From: Microbacterium sp. AK009
Lineage (GTDB): Bacteria; Actinomycetota; Actinomycetes; Actinomycetales; Microbacteriaceae
Length of the DNA stretch: 64,000 bases
Direction: 5' to 3'
Assembly: GCF_013410955.1 (NCBI RefSeq)
Contig: NZ_JACCCG010000003.1
Location: 453,750 to 517,749 of the forward strand
Below are positions 39,119 through 53,132 of this stretch, piece after piece (position 1 is the stretch's first letter; each line of letters opens with the position of its first letter). A program made the translations under genes and the position numbers. The notes beneath the pieces were generated by a model. It saw only the letters and a list, made by a program, of their open reading frames with translations. It searched no databases and was not told the DNA's origin.

Positions 39119-39191
39119 GCGCCCGTAGCTCAATGGATAGAGCATCTGACTACGGATCAGAAGGTTAGGGGTTCGAGTCCCTTCGGGCGCG
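39119..39191 (+). tRNA. tRNA-Arg (anticodon ACG)
   Basis: Full cloverleaf: acceptor GCGCCCG (39119-39125) pairs with CGGGCGC (39184-39190), discriminator G. The anticodon stem TCTGA/TCAGA encloses loop CTACGGA (anticodon ACG, read as ICG). The T arm is AGGGG-TTCGAGT-CCCTT with one G-T pair. The 3' CCA is not encoded. Confidence 0.97.
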
Positions 39192-48819: not shown

Positions 48820-49776
48820 GTGAGAACCGCACGCCGGCGCCGGTCGCGACTGATCTGGACGGTGGCCGCCCTCCCCATCGCCGGGCTCGCGGTGGTGCTG
48901 CCGCACGTCGACATGCTCGCCGGAGGGCTCATCCCGGTCGCCCAGGCACTCGTCCCCGTGGGCGCTGTCGCTCTTGTCGTCCTCGCCGCGGTCTCGCTGT
49001 TCTTCCGGGCCTGGGCGGCGGCGGCCATCCTCGTGATCGGCGGTGTGCTGGCGGGGCTCCCCGCCCTGACTCCGCTGCGCGCCGGGTCGGAGTGCGCGCC
49101 GGAGGCGACGGCCACGGTCGTCGCCTTCAACGCGAAGTTCGCGGGTGCCGACCCCGCCCTGCTCGCGGAGCGCATCGCCGAGGCCGACGCTGACATCGTC
49201 GCCCTGGTCGAGACGGACGAGGCGCACATCGCCGCTGTTCTGGGCGAGCGCGGGCTGGCAGCCGCTCTGCCGCATCGCACGCGAGAGACCACGGAAGGCG
49301 GCGTGAGAGGCAGCGTCATCCTTTCCGCTTTCCCGTTGCAGGACGAACAGGACATCGACGGGAGCGTCTTCGACCAGGTCTCCGCGGTCGCGACGCTCCC
49401 CGGAGGTGACGAGGTCCGGGTGGCGGCAGTGCACCCGCCGCCACCGGTGGGGCAGCCGGTCGACTGGCGGACGGCGCTCGGCGAGCTCGATCGATGGATT
49501 CGTCAGACACCCGATGAGCGGCTCATCGTCGCAGGTGATCTGAACGCATCGTATGCGCATCCGGGATTCCGGCAGCTGGCTACACCGCTGCGGAGCGCGG
49601 CCGAGGCGGCCGGACCGATTCCGTGGCCGACCTGGCCGCAGGAGCGGCCGGTGCCGGCGTTCACGGCGATCGATCACGTCCTCGCGCGCGGCGCGGTGCC
49701 GACCGGGTGGGACAGCTTCTCCATCCCGGGGAGCGACCATCGCGGGGTGATCGGAAGCTGGGCGTTCTGCACGTGA
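48820..49776 (+). CDS. Membrane-anchored endonuclease/exonuclease/phosphatase-family protein
   Basis: A 318-residue protein: three N-terminal membrane helices (to about residue 85), then an EEP domain outside the membrane with VVAFNAKF, VALVETDE (catalytic Glu), IVAGDLNASYAHPGF (Asp-x-Asn) and GSDHRGVIG (final Asp-His). Leaderless GTG at 48820, six bases after TAGCGT (48808-48813). Substrate may be nucleic acid or a phospholipid headgroup. Confidence 0.85.
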   Translation: MRTARRRRSRLIWTVAALPIAGLAVVLPHVDMLAGGLIPVAQALVPVGAVALVVLAAVSLFFRAWAAAAILVIGGVLAGLPALTPLRAGSECAPEATATVVAFNAKFAGADPALLAERIAEADADIVALVETDEAHIAAVLGERGLAAALPHRTRETTEGGVRGSVILSAFPLQDEQDIDGSVFDQVSAVATLPGGDEVRVAAVHPPPPVGQPVDWRTALGELDRWIRQTPDERLIVAGDLNASYAHPGFRQLATPLRSAAEAAGPIPWPTWPQERPVPAFTAIDHVLARGAVPTGWDSFSIPGSDHRGVIGSWAFCT

Positions 49777-49790
49777 GAAGCCACGCAAGA

Positions 49791-49893
49791 AAGGGCCGGT
49801 CGGAGAGGCTCCCGACCGGCCCTTGTCCCTTGCACCAAGAGTGTCCTGCAATCACATGTCGGTAGCTGCCACAGCAAAACAACTACCGTGCGA
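49791..49893 (-). ncRNA. Candidate small RNA from repeat unit 1
   Basis: Read on the minus strand the unit has the order: inverted repeat (49940-49911), -10-like TTATAG (49904-49899), a stem-loop region, and a GC-rich 13-bp hairpin followed by CTTTCTT as terminator. A start near 49892 is implied. No -35 match; the strand is inferred from this order only. Confidence 0.4.
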
Positions 49894-49950
49894 GCACTCT
49901 ATAACGACGAGGTAACGAAAGGGAAGGGCTCGGCGTTACCTTTTCGTGAT
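49791..49950. repeat. Tandem structured repeat, unit 1 (160 bp)
   Basis: 97.5% identical (4 substitutions) to 49992-50151. Contains a 13-bp stem (49791-49803 with 49812-49824), an inner stem CGGTAG/CTACCG (49860-49865 with 49883-49888), an outer pairing GAGTG/CACTC (49839-49843 with 49895-49899) and GGTAACG/CGTTACC (49911-49917 with 49934-49940) followed by TTTT. All four substitutions fall outside these stems. The first stem also ends the EEP transcript. Confidence 0.92.
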
Positions 49951-49991
49951 TGTCAGGCGATGCTTAACCGCTGACGCGCGGGGGACAGAGT
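49951..49991. other. 41-bp spacer between the tandem repeats
   Basis: Unique sequence with no recognised signal; it differs entirely from the sequence after unit 2. Confidence 0.5.
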
Positions 49992-50094
49992 AAGGGCCGG
50001 TCGGTGAGGCTCCCGACCGGCCCTTGTCCCTTGCACCAAGAGTGTCCTGCAATCACATGTCGGTAGCTGCCACAGCAAAACAACTACCGTGCGA
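49992..50094 (-). ncRNA. Candidate small RNA from repeat unit 2
   Basis: Same layout as unit 1: -10-like TTATAG (50105-50100), stems preserved, 13-bp terminal hairpin at 49992-50025; here the hairpin is followed by ACTCTG rather than a T-rich run, so termination may be weaker. Confidence 0.38.
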
Positions 50095-50151
50095 GCACTC
50101 TATAACGGCGAGGTAACGAAAGGGAAGGGCTTGCCGTTACCTTTTCGTGAT
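49992..50151. repeat. Tandem structured repeat, unit 2 (160 bp)
   Basis: Copy of unit 1 shifted by 201 bp. Substitutions relative to unit 1 are at 50005 (loop of the first hairpin), 50108 (linker), 50132 and 50134 (loop of the GGTAACG/CGTTACC hairpin). It ends 16 bp before the stop of the convergent ABC permease gene. Confidence 0.92.
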
Positions 50152-50167
50152 CGCTTCGCCCACGGCT

Positions 50168-51031
50168 TCAGGACAGCACGTCCTTCGTCGCGAACCGCGC
50201 CACCGCGGAGGCCCCGAACACCGCCACATATCCCGCCTGCAGAAGGGCGTTGGCCGCGAACGAGTCCCAGATGATCGGTGCCCGCAACAGGTCGCCGAAG
50301 TCGAGCCATCGATCGGTGAAGAGCCAGGGATGCAGGGCGTCGAGCTGAGGGATCGCGCCGACGATCTGCGCGGCGACAGCGAGGATCGCCGTCGCGGCCA
50401 TCGCGCCGATCGGCACCGTGGTCAACGTGGAGAGGAAGAGTCCGATCGCCGACAGGCCGATGAGGGAAATGGAGGCGTACGCGGCGATCGCAAGAAGTCG
50501 CAGCAGCCCCTCGGCCAGGGATACCTGGGCCCCCGAGAGCAGTGTGACCGGACCGATCGGGAACAGGACCGCGCCGACGATCGATCCGACGATCACCACG
50601 GTGAGGGTGGCAGCGACGCAGAAGACGACGGCGCTGAGGTACTTCACCAGCAGCAGTCGGATGCGGCCTGCCGGCGCGATCAAGAGATAGCGCAGCGTCC
50701 CATGGCTCGCCTCGCCGGCGATCGCGTCCCCCGCCGTGACGCTGACGGTCAGCGGGAGGAAGAGCGGGATGGCCACGGTGAGCGCGGCGAGCCCGACGAA
50801 GAGCCCGTTGCCGGTGATCTGATCCAGGAATGCCGGGCCGCGGCCGGGGTCCGAGCCGCCGAAGAACCGGATGGCGACGCCGAGCAGGAGGGGGATGAGA
50901 GCCAGCGCTCCGAGCATCGCCCATGTCCGCCACCGTCGGAACTGGATCGACAATTCGTTGCCGAGCAATCGCATCGTGCCCCACCCGCCGGGCGTCGACG
51001 AACGTTCGCCCACCGCCTCAGGCGACGACAT
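50168..51031 (-). CDS. ABC transporter permease (ABC-2 type)
   Basis: A 287-residue protein with six membrane segments, of the ABC-2 export type (GDAIAGEASHGTLRYLLIAPAGRIRLLLVKYLS is the conserved coupling region). It overlaps the ATPase gene by 14 bp. Last gene of a LolA-like/ATPase/permease operon; substrate unknown, export or lipid handling likely. Confidence 0.86.
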   Translation of the reverse strand: MSSPEAVGERSSTPGGWGTMRLLGNELSIQFRRWRTWAMLGALALIPLLLGVAIRFFGGSDPGRGPAFLDQITGNGLFVGLAALTVAIPLFLPLTVSVTAGDAIAGEASHGTLRYLLIAPAGRIRLLLVKYLSAVVFCVAATLTVVIVGSIVGAVLFPIGPVTLLSGAQVSLAEGLLRLLAIAAYASISLIGLSAIGLFLSTLTTVPIGAMAATAILAVAAQIVGAIPQLDALHPWLFTDRWLDFGDLLRAPIIWDSFAANALLQAGYVAVFGASAVARFATKDVLS

Positions 51032-52004: not shown

Positions 52005-53132
52005 TCAGCGTCCGGCGACGTCGACCAGGCGCTGCGTCGGTACGGCGCCGGCGAGGATCCGTCCGTCGTCGGTGACCATCACGCTCACCAGCGAGGTCTG
52101 CAGCACGCGGCCGCCGTCCACGGCGGTGGTGACGCCGTCGAGCATCGCCTGCTGTTCGGCATCCAGTTCCGGTTTCGGGAGTTCGATGACGGCGGACCAG
52201 CCTTCACCGATGACGGTCGGAGCCGCGGCCTCCCGCGTCGAGGGACCGACCCGCTCGTCTTTCGACGGGAGGGGCACGTCCTTCTCGGTCACCGCGACGT
52301 CGGCGCCGGGCTCGAAGGAGAAGACGCTCGCGTCGGGAGCCGAGAAGTCGACCTGCGTGAACGCGATCTGGAAGGCGGGCTCGGTGGCGCCGCGCGCGGT
52401 CACCGAGGCCGCGAGGGCGACTCCGGTCTCGCCGTCGACGGCGAACCGCACGTCGCCGACCAGGGTGTCGTCGGTGCGGGGAGACAGGATGAGCTCGTAC
52501 GCCTCGCGTCCGGCGATCCGCGCGTCGGTCCCCACGGTCACCTCCGTGCTCTCGTCGAGACGCGCGAGGGCCTGATCGAGCATCTCGTCAGGGGTCGGCA
52601 GCGCGTCGTCGGGTTCGGCCGGTGCGACATCCTCCCCGTAGGCGTCGCGGAGGTCGTCTTCGTCCGGCAGAACCAGCTTGGTCGCCGACTGGCTCTCGCT
52701 GTCGACGTACCACACCTCGCCGGTGGCGCCGTCGACATAGACGTTGCGCTCACCGAGCTGATCGAGCACCTGCAGGCGTGCGCTGTCGCCGTCGAGATAC
52801 ACCTTCGCGGTGTGCGAGCCGGTGACCAGCGAGATCAGATCATCGAGCTGTGCCGATGAGACGCCGTCTGCGCTGTCGCCGTCGGGGGAACCGGTGAGGG
52901 CGCCGAGGTCGGGGAGGCCGAGTTCCGACCTCTGCTCGATCGTGCCGCTGAGCGCGTCGATCTCGCTCGCGCCCGCGAACTCGATCAGCTCCTCCGGGGA
53001 CTTGTCCGGAAGGTCGACGGCGCCGCTGGCGGCCATCGGCACGGCGACCGCCGCGCCCGCGAGCAGGGGCACCACCACGACCGAGGTCCAGAGCAGAGGA
53101 CGACGAACGCGTGAGCCAGGGCCGGGCTTCAT
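52005..53132 (-). CDS. LolA-like secreted/membrane-anchored protein (DUF2092-type)
   Basis: A 375-residue protein: N-terminal helix LLWTSVVVVPLLAGAAVAVPM anchors or exports it; the rest is a beta-rich LolA/LppX-like fold (HTAKVYLDGDSARLQVLDQLGERN, REAYELILSPR). A leaderless start fits TAGCCT six bases before ATG. In Gram-positives such proteins beside ABC exporters may bind lipids or sense envelope state; here it leads the operon. Confidence 0.82.
   Translation of the reverse strand: MKPGPGSRVRRPLLWTSVVVVPLLAGAAVAVPMAASGAVDLPDKSPEELIEFAGASEIDALSGTIEQRSELGLPDLGALTGSPDGDSADGVSSAQLDDLISLVTGSHTAKVYLDGDSARLQVLDQLGERNVYVDGATGEVWYVDSESQSATKLVLPDEDDLRDAYGEDVAPAEPDDALPTPDEMLDQALARLDESTEVTVGTDARIAGREAYELILSPRTDDTLVGDVRFAVDGETGVALAASVTARGATEPAFQIAFTQVDFSAPDASVFSFEPGADVAVTEKDVPLPSKDERVGPSTREAAAPTVIGEGWSAVIELPKPELDAEQQAMLDGVTTAVDGGRVLQTSLVSVMVTDDGRILAGAVPTQRLVDVAGR

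Follow-up and report, generated by a model that had tools for sequence, protein, structure and literature searches.

Tandem copies of a conserved Microbacteriaceae element predicted to specify a small RNA roughly 100 nt long in Microbacterium sp. AK009

Introduction

Two nearly identical units of DNA stand one after the other between convergent genes in Microbacterium sp. AK009. They lie within the window, as we call the whole stretch of 64,000 nt that was analysed, and the question that they raise is what, if anything, such a pair encodes. The original prediction, made from the letters of the window, was that a gene for an undescribed small RNA stands here in duplicate, together with a regulatory site. 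This was supported by covariation, by homologues in most sampled genera of the family, by a strand bias and by the lack of an Rfam match.

Results

The two units, copies A and B, are direct repeats of 163 nt each (49788-49950 and 49989-50151) with a start-to-start distance of 201, as had been described. They are flanked by an Exo_endo_phos gene on the plus strand, which ends at 49776, and by an ABC-2 permease gene on the minus strand, whose stop is at 50168, confirming a location between convergent genes. Read along the minus strand, copy B comes first and copy A follows. The genome (3.46 Mb) holds only these two copies of the unit, and tandem copies 201 bp apart were also found in two other genomes of the genus, G086 and G051. 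Elsewhere in the window, a 375-aa open frame (52005-53132, minus strand) adjoins ABC transporter genes; neither Pfam nor NCBIfam gave it a family at E<=0.001.

The order of parts first read on the minus strand, GGTAACG-N16-CGTTACC, TTATAG, a stem-loop and a GC-rich hairpin with 13-bp arms, was found again in each unit. All features of copy A lie on the minus strand: operator box 1 (ATCACGAAAAGGTAAC, one mismatch) at 49935..49950, operator box 2 (reverse complement ATAACGACGAGGTAAC, exact) at 49901..49916, and a -10 hexamer TAGAGT, of the form TANNNT, at 49896..49901. The predicted small RNA of about 99 nt occupies 49791..49889, with its start placed 6-7 nt past the -10 hexamer and its end placed at the hairpin. 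It consists of stem 1 with the conserved loop UUUUGCUGUGG (49860..49888), which was defined by alignment and covariation, a near-invariant single-stranded linker (49825..49859), defined by alignment conservation, and the 3' GC-rich hairpin, whose loop carries a conserved GCCUC (49791..49824). The corresponding minus-strand features of copy B lie 201 bp further on, with box 1 at 50136..50151, box 2 at 50102..50117, TAGAGT at 50097..50102, the predicted small RNA (about 99 nt, its ends likewise predicted) at 49992..50090 and its 3' GC-rich hairpin at 49992..50025.

The copies differ at five positions, none of them in the hairpin arms or in stem 1. The four differences listed originally are all present, and a fifth was added at 49790/49991 (A/T), one base outside the range first considered. 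Only 49804/50005 (A/T, in the loop of the 3' hairpin) falls inside the predicted RNA; 49907/50108 (A/G) is in the spacer of box 2, and 49931/50132 (C/T) and 49933/50134 (G/C) are between the boxes. The four had been offered as evidence of a preserved structure, but because three of them sit in the promoter and operator, they are almost uninformative on RNA structure.

We rest the structure on an alignment of 47 distinct rows. Of these, 40 are strong matches, each from a different genus, and 7 come from the same genus as the window, a choice in which weak matches are under-represented. The alignment contains two helices of 10 and 13 pairs, in which 95.7% of cells are paired compared with 82.9% after shuffling. 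Changes on both sides were found in 19 of the 23 base pairs against 10.8 in shuffled alignments, and none of 500 shuffles was equally high; double-changed cells numbered 131 against 30.7. The covariation score was 0.411, compared with 0.169 for shuffled alignments and 0.048-0.123 for slid ones, and when the partner was slid by one column only 35-42% of cells still paired. Distant copies are thus rich in the compensatory changes that had been named as the support to look for, and these collapse on a one-column slide.

The same alignment contains 64 G-U cells and 11 A-C cells. Because G-U cells outnumber A-C cells, and the other strand would reverse this bias, the RNA is assigned to the minus strand, as originally proposed. 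Folding of single sequences agrees with the structure (z -4.2 and -4.7), but the plus strand folds about equally well (z -4.4), so that folding energy alone cannot settle the strand.

The unpaired parts are more constant than the paired ones: mean majority conservation is 99.4% in loop 1 and 98.1% in the linker, against 78-86% in the helix arms. Twenty-five of the 35 linker columns are invariant, codon third positions included, and the core reads UUUGCUGUGG ... AAUGUGAUUGCAGGACACUCUUGGUGCAAGGGA. GCCUC in the loop of the 3' hairpin is kept by at least 90% of the rows, and folding predicts the linker to be mostly open. A small protein or leader peptide was considered and ruled out: frames are disrupted by length changes of 1-3 bases within the unit, and the fixed linker columns include third positions, showing that the unit is non-coding. 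A long pairing of AGAGTG with CACTCT, also proposed originally, is not conserved, because one of its arms uses the -10 box, which varies between genera (TATATT, TACATT and others) while CACTC stays. Downstream of the 3' hairpin we counted 2-6 U per 10 nt, with three or fewer at 20 of 40 loci. Because so few U follow, the hairpin is a putative terminator and the 3' end placed there is a guess.

Homologues well beyond a simple duplication were found. A DNA search with a 164-nt unit detected it in 192 of 198 genomes of the same genus (weakest best E 1.1e-17), and the unit is therefore not a chance repetition. We built two covariance models, R1 from 40 same-genus rows and R2 from the 47 rows, which represent 41 genera. 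Each gave matches in 241 of the 299 Microbacteriaceae genomes in the sample, R1 at E<=0.01 in 71 of 85 genera and R2 at E<=1e-4 in 70 of 85. In the genus sample, R2 matched 57 of 59 genomes, 42 of them once, 14 twice and one three times. Six genera (g6, g11, g14, g15, g65 and g74) had no matching genome in the sample; these genera include genomes of 1.4-1.7 Mb as well as some of 3-4 Mb, and the RNA may have been lost or may have diverged in them. In several same-genus genomes the main copy is accompanied, at a distance of about 0.85-1 kb, by a diverged second form (L019:2374-2485, L022:662-774, L026:2351-2463 and L035:572-685). In this form the end of the linker is shortened, and hairpin pairing is kept through an exchange of A-U for G-C in two rows.

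Elsewhere in the order, neither model matched convincingly (order-wide samples of 297 genomes for R1 and 198 for R2). In the order-wide sample R1 matched 24 of 297 genomes, 22 in Microbacteriaceae and two marginally (E ~0.005). R2 matched 28 of 198 order genomes at E<=0.1; the 13 strong matches were all in Microbacteriaceae, and the remaining 15 genomes had E values of 0.002-0.07; in 11 the match was confined to the 3' hairpin part, and in four it covered the whole model. Stray second matches inside Microbacteriaceae reach the same level (E 0.0008-0.04), and we judged the 15 genomes to be chance matches, though the four whole-model matches may include a very distant relative. Named genomes contain the core 19-mer in at least 119 stretches. 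Eighty of these were listed by name; 77 carry the name of a Microbacteriaceae genus or of the family itself, and three belong to unplaced Actinomycetota or Actinomycetales bins. No viral contig matched the 19-mer.

At gathering scores, Rfam 15 matched only a tRNA in the 64-kb window (39119-39191), in agreement with the proposal that the RNA is undescribed. A relaxed search of 49700-50200 gave 13 matches, all below the gathering score. Among known RNAs, PtaRNA1 (RF01811) showed a weak match on the GC-rich hairpin of 23.5 bits, which is far under its gathering score of 47 and is a hairpin resemblance at the level of chance. 6C RNA, an actinobacterial small RNA, is short and intergenic, with its own promoter, stem-loops and conserved single-stranded regions. 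The element resembles it in being short and intergenic, in having stem-loops with conserved single-stranded regions and in its predicted promoter, but it lacks a run of six C, has no Rfam match and was found here in one family only. Among the matches listed from the open literature on small RNAs of Microbacteriaceae (including Microbacterium, Clavibacter and Leifsonia) and on the core letters, no title describes the element, nor is it described in the available part of PMC11218159. We class it as a predicted new family of bacterial small RNA.

We analyzed the promoter in 192 distinct sequences. They were selected by requiring the core to match exactly, so that the core is conserved in this set by construction, but the counts of boxes and -10 hexamers are not. 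TANNNT is present in all 192. Box 2 ends on the first T of this hexamer; the A and the final T are independent of the box. The -10 hexamer, originally placed at TTATAG, is thus better placed 2 nt downstream, at TAGAGT (49901-49896). The predicted promoter is intergenic in the window, and no clear -35 was seen in Microbacterium.

The inverted repeat upstream had been taken for an RNA hairpin stem formed by GGTAACG and CGTTACC. It belongs to two head-to-head boxes of the GlnR/MtrA type, ATAACG-N4-GGTAAC, each a direct repeat of 5-bp half-sites with a pitch of 11 bp, and judged by its sequence a protein-binding DNA site fits better than a stem. Each copy carries its own operator, rather than the two sharing one regulatory site. 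Box 2 (GTTACC-N4-CGTTAT) is found within two mismatches in 192/192 promoters and box 1 within three mismatches in 142, the other 50 having four or more; the chance expectation for such a box 1 in the scanned stretch is about 1%. Leaving out the 50 without box 1, the gap between the boxes is 8-10 bp in 77 promoters and 16-18 bp in 65. We split the gaps by genus using the 80 records listed by name out of at least 119 stretches. Among these records, 17 of the 27 Microbacterium promoters have both boxes, always with a gap of 16-18 bp, and 10 lack box 1. Of the 47 promoters from other named genera, 29 have both boxes, always with a gap of 8-9 bp, and 18 lack box 1; seven unplaced promoters have mixed gaps. 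Box 1 is missing in, among others, named Clavibacter and Curtobacterium records. The two gap classes differ by about one helical turn, a difference that a protein-protein contact could tolerate.

These boxes are rare away from the RNA promoter. Of the 40 one-per-genus loci (6.2 kb), 39 have a box with at most one mismatch at the RNA promoter, 31 of them have both, and such a box was found only once elsewhere. The window's own genome has six sites with at most one mismatch, four of them at the two copies; the reversed pattern has three. The two further single-box sites (L241 and L244) are no more than this reversed control gives, and were set aside. No exact GTAACG-N14-17-CGTTACC occurs elsewhere in this genome.

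According to the part of PMC10704036 available, GlnR boxes have the forms GTnAC-n6-GTnAC and t/gTAAC-n6-Gc/aAAC, and GlnR winged-helix domains bind them head-to-tail. The boxes described here share with GlnR-regulated promoters the two 5-bp half-sites and the 6-bp spacer given in that part (PMC10704036). They differ in that two boxes face each other around a predicted small-RNA promoter, with only two other sites in the genome at one mismatch or less. For MtrA, the accessible text of PMC12323332 gives the consensus GTAACC-N5-GTAACC, which has the same TAAC direct repeat and 11-bp pitch; compared by sequence alone, the first half-site of the element differs in being followed by G, not C.

A candidate for the protein that reads these boxes lies upstream. 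A gene for a winged-helix regulator was found in 289 of the 299 Microbacteriaceae genomes. We listed 150 places of the RNA and 150 of the regulator; 115 genomes were in both lists, 109 of them with both on one contig. Among these listed matches, the regulator lies upstream of the RNA on the same strand in 107/109 genomes, within 300 bp in 27 of them, within 5 kb in 66 and within 40 kb in all 107; in the remaining two it is on the opposite strand. In a Clavibacter michiganensis record (L138) the regulator frame stops 145 nt before the core. In the window's genome the regulator gene is on another contig (C5, 401633-402319, plus strand), with 16 kb between it and the end of that contig. The RNA lies on the strand opposite to that of the regulator, and 14 kb separate it from the end of C3. 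If the ends of C3 and C5 adjoin, the distance would be about 30 kb, like that in the relative G051.

Pfam gives this protein only Trans_reg_C at E<=0.001, without an N-terminal response-regulator receiver domain, and among the matches listed no NCBIfam model was above its cut-off (examples of homologues are L076:2094-2864 and L138:6255-7034). Among solved structures, its DNA-binding domain is nearest to those of GlnR by sequence and by fold (48-49% identity), and the stretch RT(I/V)DVHVRRLRAKLG is common to both. The N-terminal part is conserved across the family and has no Pfam receiver domain; in the predicted model the winged-helix domain is confident, residues 61-100 score 78-90 and most other N-terminal residues are below 70. 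The protein is GlnR-like in DNA binding only and is not filed as GlnR. From its position and domain, this receiver-less GlnR-like protein is likely the regulator of the RNA promoter. No box with at most one mismatch was found at the regulator's own start in the 40 one-per-genus loci. The regulator is kept where the RNA model finds no match (for example in G202, G207 and G211). Its presence in 289 genomes, compared with 241 for the RNA, indicates that the regulator has other work or that the link is wrong.

The RNA could be real and yet be controlled by something else. ECF sigma factors read promoters of the form GGTAAC-N18-CGTT, and in many genera GGTAAC stands 18 bp ahead of CGTTAT. In the window's genus, however, this spacing is 10 bp longer, and the absence of box 1 from 50 of the 192 promoters, all of which keep TANNNT, also speaks against an ECF promoter. 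Alternatively, the boxes may belong to MtrA, whose consensus shows the same direct repeat in the part of PMC12323332 available, or to a true GlnR; the neighbour protein is favoured over these only by its position and its GlnR-like domain. We consider a promoter read by an ECF factor, or boxes read by MtrA or GlnR, unlikely but a serious competitor.

Discussion

Conservation, covarying helices, the strand, an invariant -10 hexamer and repeated operator boxes are observed features of the element. The reading that we favour, and hold to be probable with real room for doubt, is that the window carries tandem copies of a conserved Microbacteriaceae element whose predicted, specifically regulated minus-strand small RNA of about 100 nt likely pairs in trans with mRNAs. 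Transcription from TANNNT would make a minus-strand small RNA that ends at the GC-rich hairpin, and the near-invariant linker and loop would act by base-pairing with target mRNAs in trans. A head-to-tail pair of winged-helix domains of the OmpR/GlnR type would bind each 16-bp box, with half-sites 11 bp apart. Because box 2 abuts the -10 hexamer, a protein that occupies it would be more likely to close the promoter than to open it; the sequence does not decide between repression and activation, and it is the position of box 2 that favours repression. Tandem or near copies in some Microbacterium genomes would raise the dose of the RNA.

Neighbouring genes gave no target. In the one-per-genus loci, with genes called by a simple open-frame script, the genes that recur upstream are those for the winged-helix regulator and upp, and those that recur downstream are MarR and photolyase genes. 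We compared the linker with the starts of these four families (MarR, 21; winged-helix, 16; photolyase, 15; upp, 11) and found no unusual pairing: median complementarity ranks of 0.415-0.65 lie mid-way among all windows, and a cis target among the neighbour genes was therefore ruled out.

The same result would be expected of a small RNA that binds or sequesters a protein, as 6S and CsrB-type RNAs do, with the fixed loop and linker contacted by protein and not by mRNAs; the sequence traces left by such an RNA would be largely the same. Such a partner would also enforce a loop and linker that are near-invariant across 41 genera. Against this, the element matches no Rfam family, 6S included, no repeated protein motif was seen, and the linker is predicted to be mostly open, as in pairing RNAs; we regard a protein-binding RNA as rather improbable. 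A further alternative is a leader or attenuator acting in cis on a downstream gene. By the script-made gene calls, a codirectional gene, often MarR, is next in 31 of the 40 one-per-genus loci, but in nine the gene that follows has the opposite orientation, the distance to the next gene ranges from tens to more than 2000 nt, the downstream gene in the window is convergent, and the linker does not pair with MarR starts. The constant codirectional downstream gene of a leader or riboswitch was thus not found, and a cis-acting role is very improbable. A DNA-level element without a functional RNA (a repeat, a MITE-like unit or a bidirectional terminator) would suit a palindromic hairpin between convergent genes and the tandem and near duplications, but it is the least credible reading of all, given a single copy in 42 of the 57 positive genus genomes and two in the window's own genome, not the many dispersed copies of REP or MITE families, covariation with a G-U bias toward one strand, and unpaired letters better conserved than stems.

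With a trans-acting small RNA as the preferred reading, we tentatively suggest, as an idea with perhaps a modest chance of being right, that the receiver-less GlnR-like protein and the RNA form a two-part regulatory module that goes back to the ancestor of most Microbacteriaceae, with the RNA promoter as the main or only strong target of the protein. If this is true, the RNA would be a global output arm, through which one transcription factor acts on one RNA and that RNA on many mRNAs, and the tandem copies would tune the dose in Microbacterium. Because a testable operator and a candidate regulator come along with the RNA, the complete circuit could become accessible in one go, in Microbacterium strains that are harmless in the laboratory, and the models and alignments would allow the gene to be annotated across Microbacteriaceae. 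An RNA whose core varies less than its stems, and which selection has kept across most of a large soil, plant and environmental family, probably matters to these bacteria.
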